DNA of 64,000 nt from assembly GCF_947496985.1 (NCBI RefSeq), contig NZ_CANMEZ010000005.1, forward strand, positions 248,001 through 312,000, written 5' to 3'. Positions within the stretch are counted from its first letter, which is position 1; every line of letters begins with the position of its first letter. Shown here piece after piece: positions 26,701 through 64,000 of this stretch. The notes below the pieces were generated by a model, which made no database searches, was not told where the DNA came from, and saw only the letters and a list, made by a program, of their open reading frames with translations. The position numbers and the translations under genes are program-made. The DNA comes from an uncultured Kordia sp. GTDB taxonomy: Bacteria; Bacteroidota; Bacteroidia; Flavobacteriales; Flavobacteriaceae.

Positions 26701-29700
26701 TTCCGCTTTTGTGATTTTATGTAAAAAAATATTGAAAACAGCCGTCAATGTAGTGTTCAATGAAACTTTATAACGATTGGATAAGGCAACCAACGCATTG
26801 GAATCGTCTTCATGAATATTGAAAATATAACTATCGCCTTCAAAACTTTTAATAGCTGGACGTGTATGATCTATTGGCAAATCTAATATAGGTAGTTCGC
26901 CTTCAAGTTGCTGTAACCAATATGCTTTTTGTGCTTCTTTGCGTTTCTTTTCAGCTTCACTTTCAGACCAAACGACATAATCTTTATACTGAATACGTAA
27001 TGGTGATAATGAAGTTCCTTGATAAAATGCCATGAAATCTTTTCGTAGAATTTCGGTAGAAGAAGCATCAGAAATAATATGGTGAATATCAACAAGTAAT
27101 ATTGATTTTTTTGGTGTTTCAATACATCCAATACGAAATAAAGGACCGTTGTTGAGGTCAAATGGCTTTTTAAAAGCCGTTACCTTTTTGTTGACTTCAA
27201 TGCTATCAAGTGTATCTAATTTGTGATATTCTATAGTGAAATCAATTGTATCTAATACTTTTTGATAGATGTCTCCATTTTTCATAAAGAAAACGGTTCG
27301 CAGACTTTCATGGCGTTGAATTAATTGATGCGCAACTGTTTCTAACTTTCCTTTTTGTAACGATTCCATTTCAACAACTTGTGTCATGTTGTAGGCAATA
27401 TTGTTTCGTTCCAAGGCATATAAAAGATACATTCGTTTTTGTGCTGGCGATAATGGATATGCTGCTTTTTTATCAATTACAGGAATTTGTTGCGCTTTTT
27501 GTATGGAAAGATGTTTTATATGATTGGCAATTTCACGAATACTTTGAAGTTTAAATATTTCAGAAACAGCTACTTTGATATTTAGTTGTTTTTGAATTCT
27601 TGATGCTAACATCATTGCTTTTACAGAATGTCCGCCTAATTCAAAGAATGAAGTCGTTACATTTATATTTTCTACAGAAATTTTTAAAAGTTGACTCCAT
27701 ATGTTGACTAAAGTCTCTTCTGTTTTGTTAGAAGGTTTATGAATGGTTTCAACTGTAATAGTTTCTGTTGGATTTGGAAATTTAGAAGCGTCAATTTTTC
27801 CGTTTACCGTCATTGGAAATTCCTTCATTTTTGTAAAGAAAGATGGAATCATATACGAAGGTAAAAATGTTGTTAATGCAGCTTTGAGTTGTTGCAAGTC
27901 ATAAACTTCTTTTTCAGGAATTATATATGCGCATAGTTGATAATTATCTCCTTGTTTCCACGGAAGTACGTATGCTGATTGAATGCCTGCTACTTTTGCT
28001 ATTTGGGTTGTTACTTCCTGAACTTCTACACGGAAACCGCGTATTTTAATTTGATCGTCATTTCGTCCAATAAATTGAATATTTCCATCAGGTAACCAAC
28101 GTCCTAAATCACCTGAGCAATAGAGTTGTTGATCAACATTAAAAGGGTTTTGGATGAATCGTTTAGGCATTGAAAGTTTGGTATTGAAATATCCTTTAGA
28201 AACACCTTTTCCAGCAATACAAATTTCACCTTGTGTGCCAATTGGAACCTGTTTTTTATTTTCATCCAGAATATATACTTCTGCATGTTTCATTGGTGTT
28301 CCAATAGGAGCAAAGCTTAGTTTTTGAATGTTTTCTGCGTTAATCTCAAACGCAATACTATCAACAGTACATTCTGCCGGACCATACAAGTTTATTGTTC
28401 TTGGAGCATTTTCACCATAACGATCATATATTTTTTTCAATGCTGGGAAATCCATTTGTTCACCACCAATGAGCAAGTGTTTTAAAGGTGGCATTTTTGG
28501 CAATGTATCCAATACTTCTGCCATGATTCTTATGTGTGAAGGTGTTCCGTCTGTAATGTCAATTTCATGGTTTGTAAAATATTCCATGAGTTGATAACCA
28601 TCCTTCCGCGTTTCTTTATCAACAAGATATAATGAATGTCCTAAAACGAAACAGCCAAATAGTTGCTGAACAGAAGGATCAAAAGAAAAAGAAGCCAATA
28701 AGGCAACTTTTAGCGCTTCATTATTTGGATAGTATGAATAGACACTTTCTACTAAATTATCTACTAAATATAATACGTTTTCATGCGAAACTTCAATCCC
28801 TTTTGGAACTCCCGTAGAACCAGAAGTATAGATTACATATGCTGAATTATTCGGTTTAATTTCAGGAAACGCACTTTTCTCAAGCGAATTTGTAAACGCA
28901 TCTTCATAACAAATTAGTTCGTTTTTGCTCAATTCATTTTTTAAAGGATTACCACTTGAAATCAGTGTATATTTTGGTTTACTATCATCTAACATGTATT
29001 GAATTCGACCAATAGGGTACGAACTATCTAAGATGACATATGCACCGCCAGCTTTTAAAATTCCCCAAATAGAAACAATTGATGATTCCGTTCTATCATC
29101 AATAATTCCTACAATATCACCTTGTTGTACTCCTTTGTGAAGTAAATAATTTGCAACAGTATTAGAAACTTCATCCAAATCTTGATAAGTCATTGTATTC
29201 CCTTCAAAATACAATGCAATCCGATTTGGTGTCTGTTGTACATTTTTTGCAAATGCAGCAACCAATGATTCTTTTGGAAGTGTTTCTTGCTGTTTTTCAT
29301 GTGTGTGAAATTGTGCTAATTGTTGTAATTCTACTTCTGAAAGCTGAAAAAGCGTACCAACAGTTTGTGCTGTGTTTTTTATTGAATGTAGAATGAGTCT
29401 TTTAAAATCAGTAGCAATCAATTCAATAAAAGCAGGATCGTGTACATTTCCATTAAAAAGAAAATCAATAATTAGCTTTTTTGTAGGTTGAATTAGTAAA
29501 CTAAGATTGTAATTTGTTTGTTCGAAAACGTCAATATTTTCAATAGTACAATCAAGCTTTTCTTCATTTTTATTTGCGTTTGAAAATGCTTCTAGTTGAT
29601 CTGCAATTGGAAAGTTTTCAAGCACTAAAATATGATCAAACAGATTATTTTTTAAAGGAGTTGCAGCTTGAATATCTGCCAATGGATCATATTGATGTGC

Positions 29701-30684
29701 TTCTTGCTGTAGCGCATTGCTTTGAACTTCTTTTAAAAGCGCCGCAATTGTTTTTTCTTTATCAACTTTTATCCGAACAGGAATCGTGTTGATGAAAAGT
29801 CCAACCATAGCTTCAATGTTTCTAATTTCCGGCGGTCTTCCAGAAGTTACCATTCCAAAAATGGCTTCTTCTTGTTTGGTATATTTTGATAAAACAATTC
29901 CCCAAATTGTCTGAATGAAATTGTTCAGTGTAAGCTGTTGTCCTTTGACAAAATAGTTTAGTTGATTGGTTTCTTCTTCTGAAAATTCTAAGATGTTACG
30001 TTCATTTTTATACGATGAATCTGCAACATATAGCTTTGTTGGAGGAATATGTGACGGTGTTGTAATATCAGCCAAATAGTTTTTCCAAAAATCAGTAGAT
30101 ACTTTGGTATCTTTATTCGTTAACCAAGAAATATAACGTTTGTATGGGGTAGGTTCTTCTAAACGAATTGGACGTTTGTTGTGCAATCCATTATAGATTT
30201 CGAAGAATTCTTCAATTAAAATTCCCATGCTCCAACCATCAATAATGATATGATGATAACTCCAAATGAATTCAAATGTAGTAGCATCAATCTGAAGAAT
30301 TGATAATCGCATTAAACTTCCCTTTTTAAGGTCGAATCCTTTTTTTCTATCCGCTACTTTATATGTTGCAATTTCTGAGTCAATAGTTTCTTTGTCTAGT
30401 GTATTATCTAGCTTTTGATGGAAAAAATCAGGAATTCTATTTTTTAGAACCACTTGTACAGGTTTTTCTAAATGATCTAAAAAAGAGGTTCTTAAAACAT
30501 CGTGTCTTTTAAATAATGTAGTAACAGCTTCCTTAACAGTTGTAATCTGTAAAGCCGCTTTTATTCGATACGAAATTTGCTCAAAATAGGCATTGATTTC
30601 TGTATCGTGTAGCGCATGAAACAACATACCTTCTTGCAAAGGAGATAAGGTGTATACATCTTCTATGTTTCCATTTTTTTTCAT
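23707..30684 (-). CDS. Terminal NRPS: C-A(Gln-like)-PCP-C-A(Pro-like)-PCP-TE
   Basis: This 2325-residue synthetase adds the last two residues and releases the product. The C domain at 1-460 opens with LSPLQEGMLFHAL, the form that accepts a D-configured donor, and has HHIIIDG at 144-150; this fits the upstream epimerase. The first A domain spans 475-970, with specificity residues read as D-P-Q-D-L-G-L-V-D-K, close to the classical Gln code. A PCP at about 985-1050 and a second C at about 1065-1500 follow, the latter with HHIISDA. The second A spans about 1520-2010, with code D-V-Q-I-L-A-H-S-A-K, partly like Pro; the usual YGPTE is CGPSE. A PCP lies at about 2020-2085. The thioesterase at 2095-2325 has GWSLGG (Ser2172), Asp near 2199 and His in HGEHQELF. 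Confidence 0.95.
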   Translation of the reverse strand: MKKNGNIEDVYTLSPLQEGMLFHALHDTEINAYFEQISYRIKAALQITTVKEAVTTLFKRHDVLRTSFLDHLEKPVQVVLKNRIPDFFHQKLDNTLDKETIDSEIATYKVADRKKGFDLKKGSLMRLSILQIDATTFEFIWSYHHIIIDGWSMGILIEEFFEIYNGLHNKRPIRLEEPTPYKRYISWLTNKDTKVSTDFWKNYLADITTPSHIPPTKLYVADSSYKNERNILEFSEEETNQLNYFVKGQQLTLNNFIQTIWGIVLSKYTKQEEAIFGMVTSGRPPEIRNIEAMVGLFINTIPVRIKVDKEKTIAALLKEVQSNALQQEAHQYDPLADIQAATPLKNNLFDHILVLENFPIADQLEAFSNANKNEEKLDCTIENIDVFEQTNYNLSLLIQPTKKLIIDFLFNGNVHDPAFIELIATDFKRLILHSIKNTAQTVGTLFQLSEVELQQLAQFHTHEKQQETLPKESLVAAFAKNVQQTPNRIALYFEGNTMTYQDLDEVSNTVANYLLHKGVQQGDIVGIIDDRTESSIVSIWGILKAGGAYVILDSSYPIGRIQYMLDDSKPKYTLISSGNPLKNELSKNELICYEDAFTNSLEKSAFPEIKPNNSAYVIYTSGSTGVPKGIEVSHENVLYLVDNLVESVYSYYPNNEALKVALLASFSFDPSVQQLFGCFVLGHSLYLVDKETRKDGYQLMEYFTNHEIDITDGTPSHIRIMAEVLDTLPKMPPLKHLLIGGEQMDFPALKKIYDRYGENAPRTINLYGPAECTVDSIAFEINAENIQKLSFAPIGTPMKHAEVYILDENKKQVPIGTQGEICIAGKGVSKGYFNTKLSMPKRFIQNPFNVDQQLYCSGDLGRWLPDGNIQFIGRNDDQIKIRGFRVEVQEVTTQIAKVAGIQSAYVLPWKQGDNYQLCAYIIPEKEVYDLQQLKAALTTFLPSYMIPSFFTKMKEFPMTVNGKIDASKFPNPTETITVETIHKPSNKTEETLVNIWSQLLKISVENINVTTSFFELGGHSVKAMMLASRIQKQLNIKVAVSEIFKLQSIREIANHIKHLSIQKAQQIPVIDKKAAYPLSPAQKRMYLLYALERNNIAYNMTQVVEMESLQKGKLETVAHQLIQRHESLRTVFFMKNGDIYQKVLDTIDFTIEYHKLDTLDSIEVNKKVTAFKKPFDLNNGPLFRIGCIETPKKSILLVDIHHIISDASSTEILRKDFMAFYQGTSLSPLRIQYKDYVVWSESEAEKKRKEAQKAYWLQQLEGELPILDLPIDHTRPAIKSFEGDSYIFNIHEDDSNALVALSNRYKVSLNTTLTAVFNIFLHKITKAEDIIVGVPINGRKDTDLENIIGLFVNTLAIRSFPTPEKSFEAFLQESSDTILTSFDHQEYPFDELVNALNIKRELSRSPIFDVLFNAISIDLEKEDIQSNIDLSTATHAKFDLNVAVIKLHKEISFHFDYCSALFTKDTIKRFATFIQQIVREVIQSPTIKINDISILDAQEKQKVLAISRGPEAAFENKMTINELFEKQAEKIPHHPALIFGNEKMSYAELNAKANQLARVLRRKGVASDVPVALLCDRSFELIIAVVAILKAGGVYMPIDISLPNERKQQMLENANAKLILTNLDSGLESLNNYDITDLRNEALQDEDFSNLPIINAVEDLLYIIHTSGSTGVPKGVMLEQRNLLNLLLHQTYHTDLTFKNVLQFHAISFDVSAQEIFSALLEGGSLILIEERHTKNIFELFEIIEKEEIESIFFPASFLKFVLNTKIYLERLPKCIHHILTAGEHVIVTDNFRNYMRENNVWLHNHCGPSETHSAAYNHMSPTGHVPDIPPIGFPIADTDLYVLNDKKELLPIGVEGDWYISGACVGRGYINDKAKTDSKYTPDPFNEGQMMYNTGDIAKWHPNGMLEIVGRKDFQVKIRGFRVEIGEVESKFLSLPYVTEVAVLERLDEQGINHLVAFVVQNEEKTEKQLRKDIAKKLPEYMVPTYMISLNEIPLNTNGKVDRKVLLQSFDKTDSDDEETVLNSNEALKKLWSELLMINTKEIDEDDNFFEIGGNSMTALSMIARLKESFDIDIELMAFFEDPTIANLLTYFEKDSEKSQLHLLNAEHKNKVFLFPPRIGYGFVYKPLAEQIDHTAMYAFDFIEADNRIEQYVDKILSITSGESIVLAGWSLGGNLAFEVAKAIETKGIAIADVLIIDSLRIHTKIDGIDDILQKDEFHKEVHGYIKKYPELQTIQDTVIGKSNAYFRYYLDTINSGSIKGNIQFLKAEKTKKEAIQEWNDVTLQDIQTHDLHGEHQELFLPNTTALTNNKDVLKSLLHTIFNN

Positions 30685-30702: not shown

Positions 30703-33700
30703 TTATTCGTCAAAGAAAGATTCTAATGCATCTAATTCTTCTAGTGATATGTCTGTAAATGTAAGATCGCTAGGCGTGATTTCGGTTTCTTCACAACCTA
30801 AACAGAACTCAATAATGGTTTCTAAATTTTGTTGTATTTTTTGTAAGAAAGCATTCATCGTTGTTTCTTCAAATTTGTTGGAACTGTATGAAATACGAAC
30901 CGATAATTGTCCTTTGATCACAACACTTGTAATTTCTATGTCGTATACACGTGTTCTTTGTGGATGTTCCATATATTCAAGTGTAATATCTGTAGTTTCA
31001 AGTTCACTGATATTACTAATATCTGCATCAAAATGACCTAAGTAATTGAATAGTATTTGCGGATTGATATATTGTAGTGTTGCACTTTCTTCTTTATGCA
31101 AATAACGCCCAATGGCATAGCCTAATTTATGCTCAGCAGCTTGATGGACTTTTTCTTTTACATATTTTATATGTTGTTTTAAGTCATAATCTATAGGCGC
31201 GCCAACAATTACAGGATATAATGTTGTAAACCAACCAATGGTTCTACTAACATCAACTGTAGCATTAAATGGTTCTCTCCCGTGACTTTCTAATGAGATT
31301 GGAATTTCGTTTGTAACTGAAAATACCTCACGAACACTTCGTGTTAACGCAGCAATTAGAAGATCATCTACTTTAGTATTGAATACTGTATTTGCATCTT
31401 GAATTGCATTTGTAGTTTGTGCTTTATTCAAAGAAAATTCTACGAAAGCAACTTCTTTTACCGATGTGTTTTTATTAGTAAGAACTGGAATTTTTGAAAA
31501 TTCTTGATCTTGATACGACTGCCAAAAGTGTACTTCTTTTTCAAGTTTTGAACTTTCAAGATACTGTGCGTACATTTCCTCCGACCATTCTTTTAAAGAT
31601 GATACTTTGAGTGGTAATTGGAACGCTTGTTGTTCTTTTGCTTGAAGTAGAAGCGTGTTTACATCTTCAATTAAAATACGCCACGACATTCCATCAATAA
31701 GTAAATGATGACTTAGGATGTATAAATAATCACCTTTAGCGCTATTGAATACTACGAACTTAATTAATGGACCAGTTTCGAGTGAGAAACTTGAAGACAT
31801 TTCAAACATGATGGTTTTCATGGTTGTTTCAATATCAGAATCTGCACTCAAATCATGTGTTGTTAGCTCAATTGGATGGTCAACATCTTGTATTTCTTGA
31901 ATGAATTCTTCTGCAGCATTTTTATGAAAAACTGATCGAAGTCCATCATGGTGTTTGATAAGTTCTTTAATCACATTTTCTAAAACTGTTAGGTCAAATC
32001 GTTCTTTTTTGAATAATAGAACCGCTTGGTGAAAATGATCTGCATATTTTACATCGCTTTCAAAGAATGCTTTTTTGATTGGCGTTAATGCAATTTCTCC
32101 AGAAACGACAGATTGATCGCGAACAATTTCATTCTTAGTCAAAACTTTGGCTAGTTTTTCAATGGTAGGATTCTCAAAGACATCTTTCATCTTTATGGTG
32201 TATCCTTTTGTATTCAATCTTGAAACTATTTGAATGGACTTGATAGAATCGCCACCAATGTGAAAGAAATCATCTTTTGTACTTATTTTTTCTCTTCCGA
32301 TTACTTTTTGCCAAACACCTAAGACTAGGTATTCTAAATCGGTTGCGGGTTCAGTATATGCAGCATTGTTTGAAGATGCTAATTGTAATGGATCAGGTAA
32401 TAATTTCCTATTGATTTTACCATTAGGATGCGTTGGAATTTCATCAAGAATTACAATGGCGCTTTGCGCAGGAATCATATAATCGGGTAACACATTCCCT
32501 AGTTTTGAAGTAATGTCTTTGACGATTTCTTGATCTGATTTCCAGTGTAATTGTATTGTTGTTGAATTGTTATCTACATAAGTGTCAGGCTTTGTGCGTG
32601 TTGCATATAAATTATAAATATGTGTGTCAGTAAAGTTGGCATCTTGCTCGGTAATGATAGTAAAACCGTGTGATTCTATTTTTTGTTGAATCTGCTTTAA
32701 GCGATCATTTACATCATGAACTTCAATAACAATTTGTTGAATTAGTGTCCAATCTTTCTCTTGAATACCGCTTAGTACTTCCCATTCACTTTTTTCTACA
32801 TCAATTTTTAATAAATCGATTTTTTGAATATTTTCTTCTTCAATAATTTGAGAGATAGATTTCAATTTACAATCATATTCTTCTACATTTTTGAAACGTT
32901 CATGAAGTATGGAAGCACGTTCTTGTTCATCCATTGCATCACCTGATAATTGATTCTTCATGTACGTATCTACCAAACTAGCATCATCTTTTACATTTCC
33001 ATACTGTCCAGACATGATAGAAGCGTTTGGATAATATTTAAAGGTAGCTTCACTTTCTTTATCAGAAATTCCTACAGCATGTGCTTTTATAGTTGCGTTT
33101 CCGTATAGTTGACCGTTTAGCTGTAGTTTTTCAAATAATGGAGTTATGGGTTCAAAAGCATGTACTGTAACATCATTCAATATCTGTGACAAAAACACAG
33201 AAAACATACCAATGTTTGCTCCGACATCAAGTACGCAAGCGCCTTCTTCTAAATGAATTCCATTTCTTAAATATGAGTTTTCTTCAAAAATTTCACCATA
33301 CATAAAATCTGCTTCACGTGTATTCACATGAAATAGAGGCATTCCATTGGCTAGTTTGTGTATGTATTTATTTTGTAATTGTGCTTTTTTCAATAACGTA
33401 GCTGCCTGATCGTAATATTTTATTCTTTGCGAACTTGTAATATATGCTGCCAAATAGGAACTGTTGCTACTTTCGGAAGTGTCATCGTCTGTAGTAGTTT
33501 GTGTTCTTGCCATTACGATGGCTGTTCCAATATCAGGAATATTTAGTAGTTGATTTTCAATTTCTTGTAATTCAATTCGAAATCCTCTAATTTTTACTTG
33601 ATGATCTATTCTCCCTAAGAATTCTATTTCGCCATTTGGTAACCATTTTGCCGAATCTCCAGTGAGATATACTTTTTTATTGTTTAAAAAAGGAGCTGGT

Positions 33701-36700
33701 ACAAATTTCTCTTCGGTAAGTTCTGTTCGGTTCAGATAACCGCGTGCTATACCAATTCCACCAATACATAATTGACCTTCTAAACCAATTGGAACTAGCT
33801 TTAAGTTTTCATCTACAATAAATAGTTGAATATTGTCTATTGGTGCGCCAATCGGAACGACTGTTTGTGGAGCTTCTTCTTTGCATTCATGGTACGAAAC
33901 ATCAACTGTAGCTTCTGTTGGACCGTATAAATTGATCAACTTGGTATGCGTTTGTTCTTTGAAAAGTTTGTGAAACCTACGAATTTGATCGCGACCTAAT
34001 GCTTCTCCACTACAGAAAATATATTTTAATGTTGTTAGTTTTTCAATACAGTGGTTCCATTCTACATAATCAAGAAAAGCCGTTAACATTGAAGGCACAA
34101 AATGCATTACTGTAACCTCGTTTTCTTGAATGTTATCTACAATCTGACGTGGATCTTTTTCTGCGTCAATTGGTAATAAGGAAACCGACGCACCTGTAAA
34201 CGCGCCCCAAAATAACTCCCAAATAGAAACATCGAATGTGAGTGTTGTTTTTTGTAAGATAACATCTTCTGAGCTTAGTGGATATTTACGTTGCATCCAA
34301 TGAATTCTGTTCAGTAAAGAAGCATGTTCAATCATAACTCCTTTGGGAATTCCTGTAGAGCCAGAGGTATAAATTATATATGCTAGATTGTCTGATTTAG
34401 TAGTGTTTTCAACAGTTTTTGTTATATGTTTTTCTAAAATCGTACGATCGTATTGTTGTTTCTTTTTTGAAATGATCTGTTGTACGGTATTACTTTTGTC
34501 AATTTCAATAAGAAGATCATATCTATATTTGGTAAGCTCATTTTCAATAGTGTTGATTTTGTCTGAAAATTGTAATGTTTTCATAGCAGTTAGTTCCGTA
34601 CTGATATCTTTGAACCAATCTTTTGCTACAAATAATTCTTGCGACCAATCTACTTTTGTTCTGTAGTTAGGATTTTCATTTTTGAATTGATCAAAATCAT
34701 CCGTCATTACATCTTTTAGCTCATGGTCCATAATGTCTCCTACAAAAATGTATCCTTTGTCATGTATTTTATCAATCGCTTTTTGTAATACATTTTGGAA
34801 ATAATTGTGCCCATGAAATAAATGAATCACACTATTAATTATGATTACATCAAAGTTTTCTTCCGTAATAGTATCAATTTGATCTGCAGGAAGCGACTTC
34901 AATTGTATATTTTGAATTCCTTCAGAACGAACTTTTTCTTTGTTTTTTTGAATAATGACATCCGATAAATCTGTTCCATAATACATGGAAACTTTTGGAG
35001 CCAATGAATACATGGTAATTCCAGAAGCACAGCCAATTTCTAAAACGCTACTATTTTTATTTAAAATAGGAAGTACTTTTTTTGTTACATTTTCGGCATA
35101 TTCTTGCATTTCTTCTTTTGAAAAAGCAAGCCCTGTGTAACTACTTTGCCATCCACCACCTTCAATTTCGTTTTCACTTGTTTCTCCAACATGATCCCAA
35201 ATTTGTTTGTCCATCAAGAGATTTTCTTGTGTTTCTTTTTCATTAAAAATATCATCACTATCTAAACAAACATAACTGTGAAATTTTGGACATTCCCATT
35301 GTAATCTGTTTAGTGTTTTTAATTCACTTGTAAGACTGAGAATTGTTGCAATTTCTGAATCTTCAATCGTTTGTCTGAGTCTTTTTTCAGGCAATCCAAT
35401 TCCTAACGGAACATATACGCCGCCAGCTTTTAAGATTCCGTAAATTACAGGAAACAAATCAATACATCTTGGCATCAAAACTCCAACAGCTTGTTCTTGT
35501 GTCGTGTTTTCTTCATGAATTAGAAAGTTCGCAATAGCGTTCGAACGTTGATCTAATTCTTGAAAAGTAAGTGTTTTACCTTCAAAAGTTATGGCAACAA
35601 CATTTGGAGTTTCAACTACTTGTTTTTTAAATATTTCCATCACATTCTCAACGTGTGGATATTCAAAATAAGTGTCATTAAATTCTTCTAATAGTTGTGT
35701 TTTTTCAATATCAGATAGTAAATTTATTTCTTGAATTTGTTGTTGTGGATTGTGAATAAATGTTTTTGTGATTTCTTCCAGATAACCAGCAAACTTTTCA
35801 ATAGTTTCTGCTTTGAATAAACCAGTTTTATACTCAAAGCTAAATACAATGCCTTCTGGTGTTTCTACTATAAATAACGTTAAATCGAACTTAGAAGTAT
35901 CGCCATGAAAATCGCGTTGACGCACTGTTAGATTTGGAAATTCTATTTCAGGAATGTCCATATTTTGCATTACTAGACATACATCAAATAATGGATTTCG
36001 ACTCATATCTCTTTCTACAGAAAGTTTGTCTACTAAAGTTTCAAACGGATAATCTTGCGCGGCTAAAGCTTCTAAAACTTCTGTTTTGACAACTTGCATA
36101 AACTCTTGCAAAGTCATCGATTTTTCAGAAGCAATTTTAATGGCAAGTGTATTTACAAACATTCCAATTAAGTCTTGCAAACCTGCATGTGTTCTTCCAA
36201 ATACTGGTGTTCCGATAATCATATCATGTTGTCCAGTAATTTTGGAGATAAAGACGCTAAATACACTGAAAAGTGTTGTGAAAAGTGTCGTTTTTTCCTC
36301 TTTGCAACGTTGTTTTAAATCATTGGTCGTTTGTATATCAAGCAAAAATTCAAACTTACTTCCATCATATTCTTCTATGTTTTTTCGATGATAATCTAAC
36401 GGAAGTTTTAATACAGGAAGTTCATTTGATAATTTGTTTAACCAAAATTCTTCTTGTGGTTTTAGAAATTCTGCATAAGCATCACTTTGTTGCCAAGCTG
36501 CATAATCTTTGTATTGTATGGCTAAACTTGGTAAAGTTTCTTCATTGTATAATTTTAAAAGGTCTTTAATGATGATTCCAAGCGAGGTACCATCAGAAAT
36601 CATATGATGTGTGTCAAATATTAAGATTCCTTTTTCTGGTGTTAGTTTGATAAAAAATACACGAAGTAATGGCAACGTATGTAATTGAAAAGGTGTGATC

Positions 36701-39543
36701 AATGCTCTAATTTGATTGTTTAGTTCTTGATTATTTCTTTCAACAATATCAATAGCACATTTCAATTCAGGATGTATCGTTTGTACAGGAACTTCATTTT
36801 TTAATTCAAATGAAGTTCGTAAAATTTCATGCCTGGCAATTAACTTGTTAAGCGCCGTTTCCATACGTACAATATCAAGAATACCTTCCGTTTCTACAAT
36901 TAATGGTGTATTGTATGTAATTCCAATTCCACCAAAGTGGTTGACAAAAAAGAGCCTTTTTTGCGTAGATGATAATGGGTAATATTCTTGTTTTTCTACT
37001 AATGGAATGTTCATTTCTATAGCAGTTTCTGTATCTAAATCATCAATATAGATAGCTTGTTGTGCAATAGAGTTGTGTTTAAAAATATCACTTAGCGTGA
37101 ATGACGTGCGAAATTCTTCATTCATCAATGTGATTAGAATAGTCGCTTTTAGTGAATGTCCACCAATATCAAAGAAGTTATCTTCCGCACTAATATTTTC
37201 ATGATTTATATTTAGAATTTCTCCCCAAAGTTTAGCAATTTTGATAGCTGTTTTTCCTTGCGGAGCAACATAGTTTTGGCTTCTTTGAGCTTCAACTTTT
37301 TGCTGTTGTAGTGCTTTTTTATCTACTTTTCCATTAGCCGTTAATGGCAATGTTTCTATATGTATAATCTCTGTAGGAATCATATAATCTGGTAATTCCT
37401 TTGCCAATTCTTGCTTGAGCGAACTCACACTATTTATATCCGAAGCAACACAGAAAGCAGTTAAATACACATGATTATCTTGATCATTTTTTGGAATGAT
37501 GACAACTTCCAAAATATTCGATTTTTTAAGAATTACATGTTCTATTTCTTTGATTTCAACACGTTGACCTCTAATTTTTACCTGGTCGTCAATACGACCT
37601 ATAAATTCTAATTCACCTTCATCATGCCAAATACCAACATCGCCAGTTTTGTATAAATATTCATCTTCTTTAAAAGGGTTTTTGATAAATTTTTCTGCAG
37701 TAAGTTGTTCATTATGTAAATATCCTTTTGCTACACCAATTCCTCCAATGCAAATTTCTCCTTTGGCTCCAATTGGTTGTAGTTGCTGTGTTTTGTTTAA
37801 AACATAGAGCTTATGATTCAGAATTGGTTTTCCAATGGAATAGTATGGACGCTTGCTCTCAGAAGTCATTTTTTTCCAAGTACTCCAAACCGTATCTTCA
37901 GTTGGTCCGTATAGATTGTAGATGTCAAAAGGGACTTCTGGAAGTGTATCTAGGTGTAATTTTTCTCCTGCCGAAATCAATGCGCGCAGCGTTCCTTTGC
38001 TCCAAGAAAGTTCTAATAGTTGTTTTGCTAATACTGTTGGTTGAAAGGAAACTGTAATTTCTTTTTCTTCTAAGAATTTTTTTAATAGTACTTGATCCAA
38101 TCGTGTAAGTTCATCAATGATATGTAATGAACAACCATTTAGCAAACTTGGCCAAATTTCAAATCCCATAGCATCAAAACCGGCACTTGCTACTTGTGTT
38201 AAGTGATCATTTTCAGTAATATCGAATTGTTCTTTGTAAACATGTACTAAATTAACCAACGATTTATGTCGAATTTCAACACCTTTTGGACGACCTGTAG
38301 AACCTGATGTATATACTACATATACAGAGTCTTCAGTTGTTATTTCTGTATGTAAATTTTCTTTAGATTCCGCCAAATCTTCCAATTGTAGGTCTAAAGC
38401 AAAGAATATACCTTCATAGAAATCTAAGTCAAATAAGAAGTTTGATGATGTAAATAAGAGCTTACTTTTAGTATTTTCTAATATGTATTGAATGCGCTCT
38501 GTCGGATAGTTTACATCAATTGGAACATATGCACCACCAGCTTTTAAAATTGCTAATAAGGCAACAATCATTTTTGGAGAACGTTCGTGCAAAACCGCAA
38601 TAATATCGCCTTTTTTGATGTCGTATTCTTTAACTAAATTATGAGCTACTTGATTAGATAGTTCATTTAGTTCTTTATAAGTAAGCGATTCATGTTGGTC
38701 TGAAACGGCTATTTTTTCAGGATATTTTTGTGCTTGAATTTCAAAAAGTTCATGAACTGCAATATTCGTATTATATTCTTTTTGTGTGTTATAATTGAAC
38801 AACACTGCTTTATCTTCTGAAGCTAAAATGTCTAAGTTTCCAATTGCTTTATCAGGATCAGTTAGCAACAAAGCTAGCATGTTTTGATAGTTTTTTATAA
38901 TACGAATAATACTTGCTTTTTTATATTTTGATGTGCTGTATGTAAGTTCGCATTGTAGACCATTAGTATCTTCTGTAAATGTGAAAAATAGCGCATATGT
39001 TGCCTTTGGTGCAATTGCTTGTGAATTGGTTAAACGTATTCCTGTTTGAAGAAAAGCATGTTTATTTCCTTCATTTTTAGCGTCCTTTTCATCAATCCAA
39101 AGGTCTAAAGGATAATTTTGATGCTCAATACTTTCGACAACTTCTTTCCGAACTGCCATTAAAATATTTTTGAAGCTACTTTCATCATTTACTAATGTTC
39201 TTAAAATTAGGCGTTCATTTAAAATATCTTCATCTTCTCCGTTAGAGAATAACGTGGTTTCTAAAATGGCGTCTTCATCTCCTGTGTATCTGTGTAATAA
39301 TGCTAAAAGTCCACTGGTAAGAATCATGTATAGCTTTGCGTGTGAACCTTCGCTTAATGATAGTATTTTTTTGTGTACTGTGTTTTCTACTTTAAAATGG
39401 ATGCTGTCTTGCGTACTAGAAACGTTTGCTACAGAAGGGAAATCTATAGGAAATATAGATGATTGTGGAACATCCGATAGTTTTTGTTCCCAATAGTTTC
39501 GCTCTTTCTTTTGTATGTTTAACGCTAGTTTTCTATCGTTCAT
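30703..39543 (-). CDS. NRPS: half-C-A-PCP-C-A(Ser, with two inserted methyltransferases)-PCP-E
   Basis: This 2946-residue synthetase starts with a condensation-like fragment (1-240) that lacks the HHxxxDG lobe. The first A domain runs 262-745 (code D-A-F-S-I-A-L-V-W-K, unassigned), with a PCP to about 835 (FFDIGGHSL). A full C domain follows, with HHMISDG near 979-985. The second A domain (1305-2385) has the classical serine code D-V-W-H-F-S-L-V-D-K and is interrupted twice. A SAM methyltransferase (VLEIGCASG, 1500-1508) sits between motifs a2 and a3, and an FkbM-type methyltransferase (VLDVGANIG, 2104-2112) between a8 and a9. A PCP of the GGDSIKS type (Ser2433) and an epimerisation domain (HHLLIDG 2612-2618, near GWFTTLYPV) finish it. 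The expected output is a methylated D-serine residue. It is 32 bp after the preceding NRPS gene and 18 bp before the next. Confidence 0.95.
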   Translation of the reverse strand: MNDRKLALNIQKKERNYWEQKLSDVPQSSIFPIDFPSVANVSSTQDSIHFKVENTVHKKILSLSEGSHAKLYMILTSGLLALLHRYTGDEDAILETTLFSNGEDEDILNERLILRTLVNDESSFKNILMAVRKEVVESIEHQNYPLDLWIDEKDAKNEGNKHAFLQTGIRLTNSQAIAPKATYALFFTFTEDTNGLQCELTYSTSKYKKASIIRIIKNYQNMLALLLTDPDKAIGNLDILASEDKAVLFNYNTQKEYNTNIAVHELFEIQAQKYPEKIAVSDQHESLTYKELNELSNQVAHNLVKEYDIKKGDIIAVLHERSPKMIVALLAILKAGGAYVPIDVNYPTERIQYILENTKSKLLFTSSNFLFDLDFYEGIFFALDLQLEDLAESKENLHTEITTEDSVYVVYTSGSTGRPKGVEIRHKSLVNLVHVYKEQFDITENDHLTQVASAGFDAMGFEIWPSLLNGCSLHIIDELTRLDQVLLKKFLEEKEITVSFQPTVLAKQLLELSWSKGTLRALISAGEKLHLDTLPEVPFDIYNLYGPTEDTVWSTWKKMTSESKRPYYSIGKPILNHKLYVLNKTQQLQPIGAKGEICIGGIGVAKGYLHNEQLTAEKFIKNPFKEDEYLYKTGDVGIWHDEGELEFIGRIDDQVKIRGQRVEIKEIEHVILKKSNILEVVIIPKNDQDNHVYLTAFCVASDINSVSSLKQELAKELPDYMIPTEIIHIETLPLTANGKVDKKALQQQKVEAQRSQNYVAPQGKTAIKIAKLWGEILNINHENISAEDNFFDIGGHSLKATILITLMNEEFRTSFTLSDIFKHNSIAQQAIYIDDLDTETAIEMNIPLVEKQEYYPLSSTQKRLFFVNHFGGIGITYNTPLIVETEGILDIVRMETALNKLIARHEILRTSFELKNEVPVQTIHPELKCAIDIVERNNQELNNQIRALITPFQLHTLPLLRVFFIKLTPEKGILIFDTHHMISDGTSLGIIIKDLLKLYNEETLPSLAIQYKDYAAWQQSDAYAEFLKPQEEFWLNKLSNELPVLKLPLDYHRKNIEEYDGSKFEFLLDIQTTNDLKQRCKEEKTTLFTTLFSVFSVFISKITGQHDMIIGTPVFGRTHAGLQDLIGMFVNTLAIKIASEKSMTLQEFMQVVKTEVLEALAAQDYPFETLVDKLSVERDMSRNPLFDVCLVMQNMDIPEIEFPNLTVRQRDFHGDTSKFDLTLFIVETPEGIVFSFEYKTGLFKAETIEKFAGYLEEITKTFIHNPQQQIQEINLLSDIEKTQLLEEFNDTYFEYPHVENVMEIFKKQVVETPNVVAITFEGKTLTFQELDQRSNAIANFLIHEENTTQEQAVGVLMPRCIDLFPVIYGILKAGGVYVPLGIGLPEKRLRQTIEDSEIATILSLTSELKTLNRLQWECPKFHSYVCLDSDDIFNEKETQENLLMDKQIWDHVGETSENEIEGGGWQSSYTGLAFSKEEMQEYAENVTKKVLPILNKNSSVLEIGCASGITMYSLAPKVSMYYGTDLSDVIIQKNKEKVRSEGIQNIQLKSLPADQIDTITEENFDVIIINSVIHLFHGHNYFQNVLQKAIDKIHDKGYIFVGDIMDHELKDVMTDDFDQFKNENPNYRTKVDWSQELFVAKDWFKDISTELTAMKTLQFSDKINTIENELTKYRYDLLIEIDKSNTVQQIISKKKQQYDRTILEKHITKTVENTTKSDNLAYIIYTSGSTGIPKGVMIEHASLLNRIHWMQRKYPLSSEDVILQKTTLTFDVSIWELFWGAFTGASVSLLPIDAEKDPRQIVDNIQENEVTVMHFVPSMLTAFLDYVEWNHCIEKLTTLKYIFCSGEALGRDQIRRFHKLFKEQTHTKLINLYGPTEATVDVSYHECKEEAPQTVVPIGAPIDNIQLFIVDENLKLVPIGLEGQLCIGGIGIARGYLNRTELTEEKFVPAPFLNNKKVYLTGDSAKWLPNGEIEFLGRIDHQVKIRGFRIELQEIENQLLNIPDIGTAIVMARTQTTTDDDTSESSNSSYLAAYITSSQRIKYYDQAATLLKKAQLQNKYIHKLANGMPLFHVNTREADFMYGEIFEENSYLRNGIHLEEGACVLDVGANIGMFSVFLSQILNDVTVHAFEPITPLFEKLQLNGQLYGNATIKAHAVGISDKESEATFKYYPNASIMSGQYGNVKDDASLVDTYMKNQLSGDAMDEQERASILHERFKNVEEYDCKLKSISQIIEEENIQKIDLLKIDVEKSEWEVLSGIQEKDWTLIQQIVIEVHDVNDRLKQIQQKIESHGFTIITEQDANFTDTHIYNLYATRTKPDTYVDNNSTTIQLHWKSDQEIVKDITSKLGNVLPDYMIPAQSAIVILDEIPTHPNGKINRKLLPDPLQLASSNNAAYTEPATDLEYLVLGVWQKVIGREKISTKDDFFHIGGDSIKSIQIVSRLNTKGYTIKMKDVFENPTIEKLAKVLTKNEIVRDQSVVSGEIALTPIKKAFFESDVKYADHFHQAVLLFKKERFDLTVLENVIKELIKHHDGLRSVFHKNAAEEFIQEIQDVDHPIELTTHDLSADSDIETTMKTIMFEMSSSFSLETGPLIKFVVFNSAKGDYLYILSHHLLIDGMSWRILIEDVNTLLLQAKEQQAFQLPLKVSSLKEWSEEMYAQYLESSKLEKEVHFWQSYQDQEFSKIPVLTNKNTSVKEVAFVEFSLNKAQTTNAIQDANTVFNTKVDDLLIAALTRSVREVFSVTNEIPISLESHGREPFNATVDVSRTIGWFTTLYPVIVGAPIDYDLKQHIKYVKEKVHQAAEHKLGYAIGRYLHKEESATLQYINPQILFNYLGHFDADISNISELETTDITLEYMEHPQRTRVYDIEITSVVIKGQLSVRISYSSNKFEETTMNAFLQKIQQNLETIIEFCLGCEETEITPSDLTFTDISLEELDALESFFDE
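32554..33426 (-). other. FkbM-type methyltransferase inserted between A-domain motifs a8 and a9
   Basis: Residues about 2040-2330 of the 2946-residue NRPS lie between a8 (GRIDHQVKIRGFRIELQEIE) and the a9/a10 end (LPDYMIPAQ, then NGKINRKLL). They carry an FkbM-like fold with the SAM loop VLDVGANIGMFSVFLSQ and the conserved IDLLKIDVEKSEWEVLSGI block. FkbM proteins are mostly O-methyltransferases, so O-methylation of the serine side chain is the natural guess. Confidence 0.85.
34446..35226 (-). other. Class I SAM methyltransferase inserted between A-domain motifs a2 and a3
   Basis: Residues about 1440-1700 of the same NRPS lie between a2 (LKAGGVYVPL) and a3 (YTSGSTGIPKG). Motif I is VLEIGCASGITMYSL; later segments are YYGTDLSDVII, FDVIIINSVIHLFHG and GYIFVGDIMD, typical of the Methyltransf_12 group found inside A domains. 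Whether it methylates the backbone nitrogen or the side chain cannot be read. Confidence 0.85.
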
Positions 39544-42500: not shown

Positions 42501-43469
42501 AACAGCAATTATTTCACCTTTTATAACTCCTTTATCTTGTAAAGTATGAGCTAATGCATTGGCTTTTATATTCAGTTCTTTATAGCTTAGTTTGTTATTG
42601 TTAAAAACAATAGCATCTTTATTTGGTGTTTTAAGAACTTGTACTTCAAATAGTTTGTGTATGGTTTGATCTAAAGAAATATTGTTAGTTGTTGCATTCC
42701 AACCGTTCATTAATAATTGTTTTTCTGCTGGTGGGACTAACGATATTTTTGAAACTGAGCTTTTTAATTGATGTACAATTTGTTGTAAGACATATTTAAA
42801 ATGTTCTGTAATAGCCATTGCTACTTCTTTAGAAAGTCTTCCTTCCTGATACGAGAGTTTCCCTTTTAATTTTGTCTGATCGTTATTTAAAATAAATACA
42901 ACTAATGGTTGTAATTCTCCAAGAAAGCGTTCATCATGGATATTTTCTAATATTAAAGCTGTATCAAAAAGTACAGGATTTGTAGCTTCGGCTTCCGATA
43001 ATATTTGTTGTTTTAAAATTTCAAAAGGATAATTTTGATGTTCTATTGCAGCTGTTAATACAGTACGTGTATTTAAAAGTACCTTTTTTATAGAATCTTT
43101 AGGACGAATGGTTTGTTTTAGCGGCAATACTGTATTGATGATTTTGTCTTTCTCAATATCTTGTTTGTATACTGTTGTCCCAATAGTTTGTTCAGTTGTT
43201 CCTGTGTATTTGTATAGTAATACAAGTAATGCTGTATGTAAAAAAAGATGTAATGAGTGATCAGATTTTTTACAAATACGCATCAATTCTGTGTACGTTT
43301 CGTCATCAATTGAAAAAGGAATTTCTTTTGAAGTCGCACCAATTTTTGCCGAATTTGCAACGAATGTTTCTGAGAGCGCGTCTGTTTTTGGCATATTTTC
43401 AAATTGTGAGAGCCAAAAAGCTGCTTCTTTTTTCTTTTGTGCCGCTATGATATGTAATTGATCTTTCAT
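39576..43469 (-). CDS. NRPS: half-C-A-PCP-C
   Basis: This 1297-residue synthetase begins with about 255 residues that match only the C-terminal lobe of a condensation domain (starting at EAAFWLSQF), with no HHxxxDG. The A domain runs 265-745; specificity residues read D-A-W-S-L-G-A-V-V-K, which suggests a hydrophobic residue but matches no code I am sure of. Motif a3 is GTPNG where most A domains have Lys in place of the Asn. The PCP is at about 760-830 (LGGNSL, Ser795). A complete C domain follows (HHMICDG at about 974-980). The protein ends in KEDFNF, like the PNMDFDF end of the upstream protein. It is 23 bp after the previous gene and 32 bp before the next. It adds the fifth unit of the chain in assembly order, after Asn. 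Confidence 0.93.
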   Translation of the reverse strand: MKDQLHIIAAQKKKEAAFWLSQFENMPKTDALSETFVANSAKIGATSKEIPFSIDDETYTELMRICKKSDHSLHLFLHTALLVLLYKYTGTTEQTIGTTVYKQDIEKDKIINTVLPLKQTIRPKDSIKKVLLNTRTVLTAAIEHQNYPFEILKQQILSEAEATNPVLFDTALILENIHDERFLGELQPLVVFILNNDQTKLKGKLSYQEGRLSKEVAMAITEHFKYVLQQIVHQLKSSVSKISLVPPAEKQLLMNGWNATTNNISLDQTIHKLFEVQVLKTPNKDAIVFNNNKLSYKELNIKANALAHTLQDKGVIKGEIIAVMTTTSLEMIIALLGVLKVGGSFLPIDPVNPSERIQTILEDSNVRFVITNEIETKKLSADIDVIEINHETLLNSEIIFTSHIGNSSETCYVIYTSGSTGTPNGVKVSHSALANLCTWHNDYFTVTSESRATKIAGFGFDASVWEIFPYMIQGATLFLTSDTIKYDIHELHSFLEAHTITHSFLPTKLGEAYVQRYDSNCLQHLLLGGEKLSRIKKRSYTITNAYGPSENAVVATTFKITKDNYVNIPIGKPIANTKAYIIQPKTLELLPIGMCGELCISGASLADGYISNTALTQQRFCKNLINNNEVVYRTGDLVRWNTNGNLEFIGRIDSQMSLRGFRIEPQEIETAILKIIKATHCVVVKKQINETESAICAFIESAQTIDITQLKNDLKSSLPEYMIPSYIVQLEKLPLTNNGKIALKKLQLPKRKTHDIILPENEIEEKLRQIWSRILKIHIDKISTDDNFLELGGNSLSVTLLSANIKDEFQKHFPVKRLFMETTIQKQATYIAIAKTTTITKIQKAGKKKSYALSSAQKRIFFHQTLNPSSTIYNIPNVFELKNYELEKLEKAFKELISRHEILRTSFEIEHNKPVQIIHDFIDFSIDQIHTESSLLETTLQNCVQAFQLNTGKLFKVTIIQSDDEQTYLFIDIHHMICDGVSIMILLNELVALYGGNTLETPNIHYRDFSEWENHTTQQLQKKVHEKFWLTTLQKPLPTVDLITDFKRPKEASYEGNTLHFSLNTSEFEDIQKLTNANGTTLFVFLLSVFKILLSKISTQKDIIIGTAVTGREHPQLLETIGNFVNTVCIRSQVNENESVTDYIKTLKSNVISVFEHQTFPFEEIVEKLDIVREAARNPLFDIAFVLQNIVNEQIQTIEQNNLSIKKMEQLAFTENTAKVDLVFTAILDGDKLAFTIGYKTALFKENTIHQLFEYYKHILHTIIKNEHIRIEDIKLPMRIKAVQTTKVDSFKEDFNF

Positions 43470-43492: not shown

Positions 43493-46400
43493 TTAAAAAT
43501 CAAAATCCATATTGGGCAATTCCTTACTTACTTCGTTCAATTGATTTTGAAGTGTTATATCTTGTAATTTGCTGACTTTATTATCTATAATTAACTCAAT
43601 GATTTCTTGATAATAGTTTACTAATCGCATGATAGTTTCTTCTAAAAAGAGTTCTTTTCTATATGCTACTTTTAGTTGTATGTTATTTTTTTGATCGTCA
43701 ATCATAAAGATAAGTTTCGACTTTACTTCTTTGAAAATTGGTTCAATGGAAAGCGATTCATTATATAATCCATGTTGTTTTAAAGCGTCTATTAGACCTT
43801 CATTTTCTTGGTAAGAGAATAGAATATCATACAAAAAGTCATCATTAGGAATATTTAGACTACTATCAATTGCTTGTTTTTGATATTCTAAAATATTCCA
43901 AACTTCTGTTTGTATTTCATTGAAGAAATCAAGAATGGTATGATTATTTTTAGGCAACATTCGTATTGGGAATGTTTTGATAAAGATGCCGACAATGTTT
44001 TTTGTTTCTTCTTTAAATCGTTCAGAAAAAGGTGTTGCTACAATGATGTCTTCTTGTCCACTAATTTTTGAAAGTAAGATGCCTAATGTGCCTAAAAACA
44101 GGGTAGCTTCAGTTATTTTTTCTCGATTGCAAAAAGTTCGTATGTGTGTTGTTTTTGAAATATCGAAGACAAAGTTTAATTCACTTCCTTCTAAAGTAGC
44201 TATTGTACGTTCAACTTTGTCGTAGGGTAAATTCACTGCTTTTGCATCTAAGCAACGCTTTGTCCAGAAATCAGTTGTGGATTCAATTTGTAACTGAGTA
44301 GTTTCCCACTCAGCATAATCTTTATATGTAACTTTAGAAGTTTCTATTGCTTGTTCATTATATAAGTCAAGAAGATTGTGAATTAGTAGTTTAGCCGAAA
44401 CTGCATCAGAAATAATATGATGAATGTCAAAGTATACTATGTTTTGATCGCTTGGAAATTGCGCTAAAAAGATGCGAATCAAAGTAGGTTGATCTAATTG
44501 AAAAGGCTTTAAAAAAGCAGCATCAATTTGCGGTATCGCTTCATGCGAATCGTATTTTTTTGACTGAAATATTATTGAGTTTTCTTGATGGATTTTTTGA
44601 ACTACTTCATCATTAATGATATGAAAAGATGTACGTAATGCTTCATGTGTCATAACCAATGTATAGAAAGCAGCTTCTAATTTTGTAGCATTTACATTTC
44701 CTAAAGGAATTTTTAGTGCAGTATTATACATCGTACTATTTTGATGTAATTGCTGCTCTAGATATATTCTTTTTTGAGCGTTTGAAGTGGAATAATATTC
44801 TTTAAGTTTAACTTTTATAATTGGTTGCTTTTCAATTTTGTTTTCTACACGATCAATATATGTTGCCAATGCTCGCACATTTGGTTCTTTAAAGATTTCA
44901 TGTAAACTTATATCAACATTGAACGTTTCATAAATTTGAGCGCTTAGTCCAACAGCTTTTAGTGATTGTCCTCCAAGATCAAAAAAGTCGCTTGTAGCAC
45001 CGATAGTTTCAGGATTTTGATCAAGAAGATTTGCAAAAATGGTTGTTAATTTAATTTCAGTATCAGAAATCGGATGCTCATGATTTTCCATTTTCTGATT
45101 AACAGCATTTGGTAATTCACTCCATTTTACTTTTCCATTAATCGTCATAGGAATTTCAGAAATTCGTATGCAATGATTTGGAATCATATAAGATGGAATT
45201 CGTACCGTTAATTTTTCTCGGATTTCCTTATCCTTAATTTCTTCATTTGAAATATAATAAGCGTACAAAACGTCATCACCTAAAGCATCTTCTTTTACAG
45301 TAACCAAGACATTTTGAAATTGTGGGTATAGTGTCTGTATTTCTTTTTCTATTTCTTTGGTTTCAATTCTAAAACCTCGAATTTTTACTTGTTCATCATT
45401 TCTACCGTAATACACTAATTCACCACTGGATGAAAACTTAGCAATATCACCTGTTTTGTACATCTTCGTATTGGCTTCAAAAGGGTTTGGAAGGAATCGA
45501 TTTTGTGTTTCTTCAGAGTTATTCAAATATCCTAAGCCAACACTATTACCAGAAACATATACTTCTCCATACGCTCCTAAAGAAACATGTGTCAAAGAAT
45601 CGTTTAGAATGTGAATTTTTGTATTTGCCACAGGTGTTCCAATAGGAATTGTATGACCTGTATGTTTTTGAAAATCATATTTTTGAACAGTACAACCTAT
45701 CGTTGTTTCAGTTGGACCATATTCATTAAATAGTGTACAGTTTCCGTTAAATAATTCATGTATTTTTGAAGCAATCGTTACTGAAAATGCTTCTCCACCA
45801 ACAATAAAACGCTTTAAATTCGTATTTGAAATTCCTCGTTTTTGATAGTGATTCGCAATAATTTTTAAATGCGATGGCGTCAATTTCATAATTGTAACAC
45901 GATCGTCTTCAATGATTTCTGTAAGTAATGCTATTGGTGTTTCTTTCTCAGAATAGACTTCAATTGTATGTCCACTGATTAAAGGAACAAAGATGGAAGT
46001 CATGGTTAAATCAAAAGAAATTGAGGTGAATAAAGGAAAGCAAGTAGGCGTATCTTCAGTATATGTTTTCTTTCCCCATAAAGCGTAATTACACAAGTTT
46101 TCATGTGAAATCATTACGCCTTTAGGAATTCCTGTTGTGCCAGAAGTATGAATAATATAGGCTAACTGATTGGATTCAATTTGTATTGTAGGCGCAGTTA
46201 TCGGTCCCGCTATATCATCTAATTGTATGTCTAGCGCAAATAGATTTGTTGCATCTATGGAAATGTCAAACAAATACGTTGTTTCAGTTAATACGGTATT
46301 AATATTTGCATTTTGAAGAATTAGCTGTATTCTTTCTTCAGGATATTTTGGATCTATTGGGACAAAGGCAGCTCCAGATTTTAGAATCCCTAAAATTCCA

Positions 46401-63225: not shown

Positions 63226-64000
63226 TTAAAGAGCTAAGTTTTTTATCAATCCATCAATATGGAAGTAAGTTTCAGGATGTTCTAATAATAATTTATTAGC
63301 TATATTTTCGTTCACTTCTAATGATTTTTTGAATACACCAATTGGATGAATGTATTTTATCTTTCCGGGAATACCGCTGAATTGGACTAAGTCAAAATTG
63401 TTAGGAGAATCAAAGTATGATGTAATCTCTATTTGCTTATGTTTAGCCATGTAAAAGAACAAGAGTTGTTCATAAATCATATTAAACGGACCTTTGGTAA
63501 TAGTGTCCATGTTTTCAAGGTTATCATCTACAAATTTGAAAGCTTCTTTTGTGTATTCTTGAATGAAATCTAAGTTGTGTCCTCCAAACAATCCAGCATT
63601 GATTGCCGTAAGTATGTCTTTGTTTGGAGTTATGTTTTTTAATACATCAGGAATGTATTCGAAAGCATTTACTATTTCATTAAAATGTGTATGATATACA
63701 GGCATGTTTACTTCTAAACTTTGTACGTACAAAGGCGCATTTTTCACTTTGTTGTGAATATCTTCCCATATAAAAACATCACCGTCCGCATGAATGAATG
63801 GTTCCTTTTGAATGCTATATGCGTATATTTTTCCTAAAGCCCAAAGGTCTTGTGGATATTTGTCTAACTCATCTAGCGCAACTGTAACTTTAGTATATGG
63901 TAATTTTAAAACATCTATGAGGATTTTTTTTCCGTATGCGTCAGTGACCAATTCTACATTGTCAAAATATTTTCTAAATTGTAAACAACTTAATGCCCAA
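63226..64000 (-). CDS. DUF6734-like, glycosyltransferase-like protein, 5' end outside the window
   Basis: The frame is open from the right edge to the stop at 63226, about 257 residues visible. Sixteen further in-frame codons precede the TTG at 63951 (WALSCLQFRKYFDNVE then LVTDAYGKKIL), so that TTG is not the start. The segment YSIQKEPFIHADGDVFIWED has a DxD-like metal motif in the context of GT-A-type transferases, and NAGLFGGHNLDFI is a second conserved-looking block. I recall DUF6734 proteins near Bacteroidota lanthipeptide-type loci, but this assignment is by eye. The adjacent LanC-like gene strengthens that association. It may be the first or an early gene of the operon; its acceptor is unknown. 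Confidence 0.6.
   Translation of the reverse strand, partial: WALSCLQFRKYFDNVELVTDAYGKKILIDVLKLPYTKVTVALDELDKYPQDLWALGKIYAYSIQKEPFIHADGDVFIWEDIHNKVKNAPLYVQSLEVNMPVYHTHFNEIVNAFEYIPDVLKNITPNKDILTAINAGLFGGHNLDFIQEYTKEAFKFVDDNLENMDTITKGPFNMIYEQLLFFYMAKHKQIEITSYFDSPNNFDLVQFSGIPGKIKYIHPIGVFKKSLEVNENIANKLLLEHPETYFHIDGLIKNLAL

Follow-up and report, generated by a model that had tools for sequence, protein, structure and literature searches.

Can one adenylation (A) domain of a nonribosomal peptide synthetase (NRPS) carry two different methyltransferases at two different places, and what would such a pair do to the amino acid that the domain activates? The question is raised by a 64,000-nucleotide stretch of DNA (the window hereafter) from an uncultured Kordia sp. 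(RefSeq assembly GCF_947496985.1, contig NZ_CANMEZ010000005.1, positions 248,001 to 312,000), whose 5.48 Mb genome has K. jejudonensis as its closest named relative. The window holds an open NRPS gene of 2946 amino acids with the domain order half-C (condensation), A1, T (carrier), C, A2, T and E (epimerisation), and residues 1299-2393 of its product are one complete serine-type A domain (A2) holding two methyltransferases at two separate sites. The features concerned are as follows, in window coordinates, with matches to a hidden Markov model (HMM) of A domains where it was used and with SAM standing for S-adenosylmethionine.

30703..39543, minus strand: NRPS gene, half-C, A1-T, C, A2 with two inserts, T, E (open reading frame and Pfam)
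35689..36993, minus strand: condensation domain preceding the interrupted module, residues 851-1285 (Pfam PF00668)
35314..35649, minus strand: first piece of A2, a1-a2, residues 1299-1410 (HMM model 7-117, E 1.7e-28)
34447..35313, minus strand: insert 1, a2-a3, class I methyltransferase MT1, residues 1411-1699, a relative of the TioS backbone N-methyltransferase (Pfam, HMM, PDB comparison, alignment, tree)
35020..35046, minus strand: SAM motif I of MT1, VLEIGCASG, residues 1500-1508 (alignment)
33418..34446, minus strand: A2 core, a3-a8, with the code DVWHFSLVDK, residues 1700-2042 (HMM, alignment)
32575..33417, minus strand: insert 2, a8-a9, FkbM-family methyltransferase, residues 2043-2323 (PF05050, E 6.7e-16; TIGR01444, 99.2 bits, cut-off 37.7)
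33208..33234, minus strand: SAM motif I of FkbM, VLDVGANIG, residues 2104-2112 (alignment)
32365..32574, minus strand: last piece of A2, a9-a10, residues 2324-2393 (HMM)
32143..32325, minus strand: carrier (T) domain with GGDSI (PF00550, motif)
30766..32100, minus strand: epimerisation domain (PF00668; TIGR01720, 117.1 bits, cut-off 74.2)
29317..30663, minus strand: condensation domain of the next protein (best PDB relatives: C domains of bacitracin synthase 3, surfactin synthetase/SrfA-C and tyrocidine synthase 2)

The HMM, trained on five A domains of this window and cluster that carry no insert, matched A2 as three ordered pieces (model 7-117, 133-460 and 444-511), separated by gaps of 289 residues (insert 1) and 281 residues (insert 2). 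Insert 1 lies between a2 and a3, because a2 starts at model position 78 and a3 at 156, and insert 2 lies between a8 and a9, which were found at residues 1977 and 2352 (a5, a6, a7 and a10 at 1871, 1923, 1959 and 2374), so that A core motifs flank both inserts as in an interrupted (A-M-A) domain. Pfam placed Methyltransf_31/23/12/25 within residues 1477-1629 and Methyltransf_21 (FkbM) at residues 2106-2294. A tandem insertion at a single site is ruled out by the HMM pieces, and a6-a7 as the second site by the motif order; a recent foreign insertion was rejected as well, the GC content being 0.30-0.36 along the gene. The structure prediction modelled A2 as one A fold, and its core was closest (40-41% identity, the highest among the 50 PDB rows listed) to the serine modules of Txo1/Txo2, while a whole-model structure search returned A-domain entries and is thus informative on the A fold, not on the folds of the inserts. 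The substrate code read from the alignment, DVWHFSLVDK, is the standard serine code; the amino-acid names used throughout (Ser, Thr, Gly, Asn, Leu, Gln, Pro) are those that the codes imply. An earlier sequence-only reading of this DNA had drawn the A domain at residues 1305-2385, correct within 8 residues, and had proposed a Methyltransf_12-like domain between a2 and a3 and an FkbM-like domain between a8 and a9, both of which are borne out (by Pfam and the HMM pieces, and by Pfam, TIGR01444 and the motif order, respectively). Its prediction of serine specificity agrees with the code, and the epimerase that it expected does follow, after the T domain.

The ortholog in K. jejudonensis is also 2946 amino acids long, carries both inserts and identical codes, and aligns without gaps (84% identity across the A domain), so the two-insert layout is not a matter of chance. 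The SAM motifs of both inserts are intact. MT1 retains LEIGxxSG, GTD and NSV in the alignment. In an alignment of 18 sequences to which FkbM and its ortholog belong, 33 columns are conserved in at least 85% of the rows, and FkbM retains 32 of these, GANIG, FEP and DLLK among them; a loss of SAM-binding residues in either insert, which would have told against the sequence-only reading, is therefore not apparent in the alignments. Ratios of non-synonymous to synonymous substitution rates (dN/dS), computed between the two Kordia genes for 12 segments (two trimmed insert versions included) and rough at synonymous divergences (dS) of about 0.6-1.4, were lowest in the two inserts (MT1 0.056, trimmed 0.055; FkbM 0.075, trimmed 0.065) among the measured segments of the gene. 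The A2 pieces themselves gave 0.141 (a1-a2), 0.089 (core) and 0.221 (a9-a10), and the remaining segments gave 0.154 (half-C), 0.114 (A1), 0.101 (C), 0.108 (T) and 0.124 (E). Selection on both inserts favours two methyl groups over one, a choice that the sequence-only reading had left undecided, and by these comparisons the two-insert A domain is real, conserved and probably functional.

Our best reading, to which we would give a probability of roughly 0.65, is an N,O-dimethylation, in which L-serine would be N-methylated by MT1, O-methylated by FkbM and then epimerised. The split A2 would activate L-serine and load it onto the carrier domain, where MT1 would transfer a methyl group from SAM to the alpha-nitrogen, and FkbM another to the side-chain oxygen, of the tethered residue. 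The E domain would invert the methylated residue, and the next condensation domain, of the DCL type, would accept it, placing a D-N,O-dimethylserine unit in the lipopeptide. The C domains of SrfA-C and tyrocidine synthase 2 (TycB) are of the DCL type, and such relatives of the next protein's C domain are as expected downstream of an E domain. The anatomy, the intact SAM motifs and the purifying selection were observed directly; the regiochemistry, the order of the steps and the product are what we infer.

The assignment of MT1 to the backbone nitrogen follows its relatives. Among solved structures the TioS backbone N-methyltransferase (PDB 5wmm) was the best match (E 1.5e-20, the next being 3.1e-5). 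A quick, midpoint-rooted tree contained one fully supported split, with 17 a2-a3 rows (MT1 included) and the unplaced L060 on one side and seven a8-a9 N-methyltransferase-type rows, TioS among them, on the other. MT1 is thus homologous to TioS M4, though it does not group with the a8-a9 N-methyltransferases as a TioS-type Mb domain would; because of this split we file it as a sister group of the Mb domains, one which may function like them. Besides DVWHFSLVDK in this lineage, the A domains that carry a2-a3 kin of MT1 have six other classes of code (DFTKIGEVGK, DAEITAEVCK, DAGVVVGVYK, DIWQ/ELTADDK, DAIDVGAVGK and DGHDIGAVxK), one of them Asn-like (L007), and this spread fits a backbone enzyme.

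Six further plasmid matches to MT1, fetched to find a TioN-like sequence, all lay at a8-a9. The Tistrella pTM3 match (H104) was rejected as a thalassospiramide a2-a3 case, since the sole MT1-type domain found in it (L078/L079) is at a8-a9, and it thus offers no functional anchor for the a2-a3 site; a second Tistrella match (L065) has its MT1-type domain at a2-a3, and the accessible part of PMC5577590 gives no insertion site for thalassospiramide. An NRPS with an a2-a3 methyltransferase also occurs in eight genomes (2.2-3.3 Mb) of one genus of another Bacteroidota family (f18; L032-L035, L046-L053), where all seven readable codes are DGHDIGAVxK and a Ser-code A domain is adjacent in four.

Insert 2 belongs to the FkbM family by PF05050, by TIGR01444 above its cut-off and by its conserved columns; against the PDB its sequence gave no match at 0.01, and a relaxed search returned three septin matches at chance level (E 1.3-2.7). 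We compared 16 distinct A domains with an FkbM domain at a8-a9. Their codes are Ser in four (this lineage, L006, L037 and L038), Thr in three (L031, L039 and L040), Gly with a second insert after a4 in three (L036, L082 and L083), others not assignable to a hydroxyl substrate in five (L004, L066, L067, L068 and L071), and unreadable in one (L069); L037 and L040, which come from two strains of a single species, share the same FkbM and are hence non-independent. A hydroxyl would thus be supplied in 10 of the 16, in three of them only via the partner insert, which argues for O-methylation by FkbM. No A-domain piece was found in four more fetched FkbM matches (L070, L072, L073 and L076). These tallies describe a sample, since the plasmid records (14 of the 50 listed for FkbM and 12 of the 80 listed for MT1) were picked for spread and score.

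Three of these A domains have a Gly code, an insert after a4 and FkbM at a8-a9, namely L082 (G398:C1:980000-992000), L083 (G598:C1:4322000-4334000) and L036 (a plasmid of Nostoc sp. C052). In L082 (Pfam, NCBIfam) and, by the annotation of the record, in L036 the insert after a4 is a luciferase-like monooxygenase of the MupA/Atu3671 type, and L083 shows the same break in the A domain with similar edge sequence; alpha-methoxyglycine is the predicted unit of these modules. In the two strains of Methylocystis bryophila (L037 and L040) the FkbM domains are at zero tree distance, with a Ser core in one and a Thr core in the other, and the core of the module next to it closely resembles the Ser core; either the cores were exchanged in nature or the assembly is at fault.

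Several observations weigh against N,O-dimethylation as we have set it out. Besides the tree split, the roughness of the dN/dS ratios and the five FkbM-bearing A domains without an assignable hydroxyl substrate, MT1 retains only 42 of the 74 near-invariant columns of five a8-a9 rows, and its region of the predicted structure is of low confidence, with 10-residue blocks mostly at 26-69 pLDDT (predicted local distance difference test). The M domains of TioN and MarQ, which also sit at a2-a3, methylate sulfur (PMC11355689), and EreM is an FkbM enzyme that N-methylates (PMC9259500). It follows that the regiochemistry could be reversed, with MT1 as a side-chain methyltransferase like TioN and MarQ and FkbM acting on nitrogen, or with both partly redundant, and the separation of MT1's a2-a3 group from the TioS group is in keeping with this. 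We nevertheless regard such a reversal as unlikely, given that the best solved relative of MT1 is a backbone N-methyltransferase, that the A domains bearing its a2-a3 kin fall into six other classes of code, that the a2-a3 M domains of thalassospiramide synthetases are listed as N-methylating (PMC11355689), and that FkbM inserts favour hydroxyl-bearing substrates.

MT1 also differs from the a8-a9 rows in a G to A substitution in motif I and in a Q to H substitution in NSVxQ, changes which would suit a single active insert with the other as a structural relic. The motif I G is missing from 10 of the 11 other a2-a3 rows too, however, and the NSVxQ Q from six of the 11, and both inserts have dN/dS values below every other measured part of the gene, so that a relic seems to us distinctly improbable. 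Hardly more attractive, and ranked lowest by us, is the notion that the domain belongs to an already described di-interrupted family or is a mis-assembly. Lundy and co-workers reportedly defined in 2020 a family 7 of di-interrupted A domains with M domains at a2-a3 and a6-a7, whereas the second site here is a8-a9, and mis-assembly was rejected because the identical layout is present in the separate K. jejudonensis assembly. N,O-dimethylation of serine by MT1 and FkbM therefore remains the reading that we prefer.

How widespread is this architecture? The complete two-site domain was found in two of 11 Kordia genomes, the own one and G399 (probably K. jejudonensis, judging by identity and protein length), and a whole-query match was obtained in the own genome only among the 397 family genomes and 395 phylum genomes sampled, with two candidates scored per genome. 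FkbM insert matches were seen in three of 395 phylum genomes (E 1e-25) and two of 378 family genomes (E 1e-20), and MT1 matches in 11 of 395 phylum genomes, the own genome being included in each count; the other three FkbM genomes had no MT1-type domain within the same A domain. Of 2394 plasmid records matched, none had a single place covering 80% of the query (in 20 records the matches are at least those listed), and since a distant dual domain could fall under this coverage the best records were inspected; the five best (H1-H5), H6 and H8 had no MT1-type domain at a2-a3 of an FkbM-bearing A domain. A scan of genome contigs, which detects close relatives only, returned two relatives, K. jejudonensis, which has both inserts, and an Aminicenantes metagenome-assembled genome, which has FkbM only, and a scan of viral contigs returned no relative. 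In the samples scanned, only these two Kordia genomes were seen to have the layout, with the qualification that the large samples overlap and that, at two to seven candidates scored per genome, a weak dual relative could escape. In another Kordia (L081; G398:C1:938000-952000, open reading frame residues 1584-2651) an A domain with the code DAGVVVGVYK is interrupted at a2-a3 by an MT1-type domain and at a6-a7 by a Methyltransf_11 domain.

With regard to origin, a quick tree of 87 A cores placed the dual core in an eight-row group (support 99) without any other interrupted core, next to the uninterrupted serine core of L004 (support 89), within a wider serine group that also contains singly interrupted cores. 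In flanking-piece comparisons, which are short (42-56 columns), the a1-a2 piece was no closer to domains interrupted at a2-a3 than to others, and the a9-a10 piece was closest to pieces that follow a8-a9 inserts (three of the top rows had been mis-tagged as uninterrupted, the tag having missed an N-methyltransferase). In an equally quick tree the FkbM insert grouped with two Flavobacteriaceae inserts (support 89, weak root). The two inserts thus seem to have joined a serine A domain separately. Port combinations observed so far are an a2-a3 methyltransferase with a8-a9 FkbM (A2), an a2-a3 with an a6-a7 methyltransferase (L081), and a post-a4 monooxygenase with a8-a9 FkbM in Gly-code A domains (L082, L083 and the Nostoc L036). 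It is quite possible, and we propose it tentatively, that in Kordia and in certain other bacteria the A domain serves as a chassis whose several insertion ports are combinable. Because their positions in the tree do not follow those of the A cores, the inserts would act as portable cassettes, and FkbM as an O-methylation cassette that follows a hydroxyl supplied by the A domain or by a partner insert.

The product of the assembly line looks like a lipopeptide of polyketide synthase (PKS)-NRPS origin. In transcription order, the first gene encodes an AMP-binding domain, probably an acyl-AMP ligase, followed by T-C-A(DFWNIGMVHK, Thr)-T. Next come ketosynthase (KS)-acyltransferase (AT)-ketoreductase (KR)-acyl carrier protein, then KS-KR without an AT match and C-A(DLTKIGEIGK, Asn-like)-C, then half-C-A(DAWFLGAVVK, Leu-like)-T-C, then the NRPS described here, half-C-A1(DAFFIALVWK)-T-C-A2(Ser, two inserts)-T-E, and last C-A(DPQDLGLVDK)-T-C-A(DVQFLAHSAK)-T-thioesterase, with an ABC transporter after it. 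For the protein at 43493-51523 Pfam, applied to the first 1100 residues, supplied the KS and KR, and its other domains were read from motifs, the A-domain HMM and NCBIfam; the order given for it leaves carrier domains out of account. Its PKS module (48224-51523), the second of the assembly line, has KS and KR with no acyltransferase match (Pfam) and may use an AT in trans. At the start of two NRPS subunits the condensation domain is reduced to its C-terminal part (38779-39543 and 42684-43469; Pfam positions about 190-455), although the subunits preceding both seem to end in a C domain already (by Pfam for one and by a C motif for the other). On the strand of the lipopeptide genes, and immediately upstream of them, are genes for a LanC-like protein (61311-63191) and a DUF6734 protein (63226-63951).

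What is new here is the natural combination of a2-a3 and a8-a9 inserts; interrupted A domains, tandem N- and O-methyltransferases and an engineered two-site enzyme are known already, and no description of a natural A domain of this kind was found in the open-licence literature, judged mostly from listings. A2 may guide the engineering of building blocks with two methyl groups, and it lends itself to asking whether a pair of methyltransferases on one A domain modifies a single T-bound residue in a fixed sequence. Like the reported family 7, it has two M domains at two sites, the first of them a2-a3, but the second site of that family is a6-a7, a pattern which L081 fits and A2 does not. Single inserts are known at both sites of A2 (PMC11355689, here and below), with O-methylserine formed by KtzH and N-methylation by TioS at a8-a9, and S-methylation by TioN and MarQ and N-methylation by TtcC and TtmB at a2-a3, in agreement with the kutzneride and thiocoraline precedents that the sequence-only reading had cited. 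The A4-M4 of TioS is the closest solved relative of MT1, its M domain being at a8-a9 and MT1 at a2-a3. TioN and MarQ share the a2-a3 position, called exceptional for TioN (PMC8949500), but differ from A2, by description, in methylating sulfur (TioN on Cys) and in having no second insert listed (PMC11355689). FkbM enzymes are reported to be O-methyltransferases with the exception of EreM (PMC9259500). KtzH (A4-Ms-A4) has a Ser A domain whose insert at a8-a9 is O-methylating, with no a2-a3 insert listed (PMC11355689). ColG of columbamide (A-Ms-Mb-A) combines, as A2 apparently does, an O- and an N-methyltransferase in one A domain, but has both M domains at a8-a9 (PMC11355689, Table 2), unlike the two sites used here. 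The closest counterpart is the trifunctional A domain engineered with M domains at a2-a3 and a8-a9 (Lundy 2019, as given in PMC11355689), which is man-made and has an S-methylase at a2-a3 and an N-methylase at a8-a9, whereas A2 is natural, conserved and apparently of N-type at a2-a3 and of O-type (FkbM) at a8-a9, as if the nitrogen and side-chain roles had been exchanged between the two sites.

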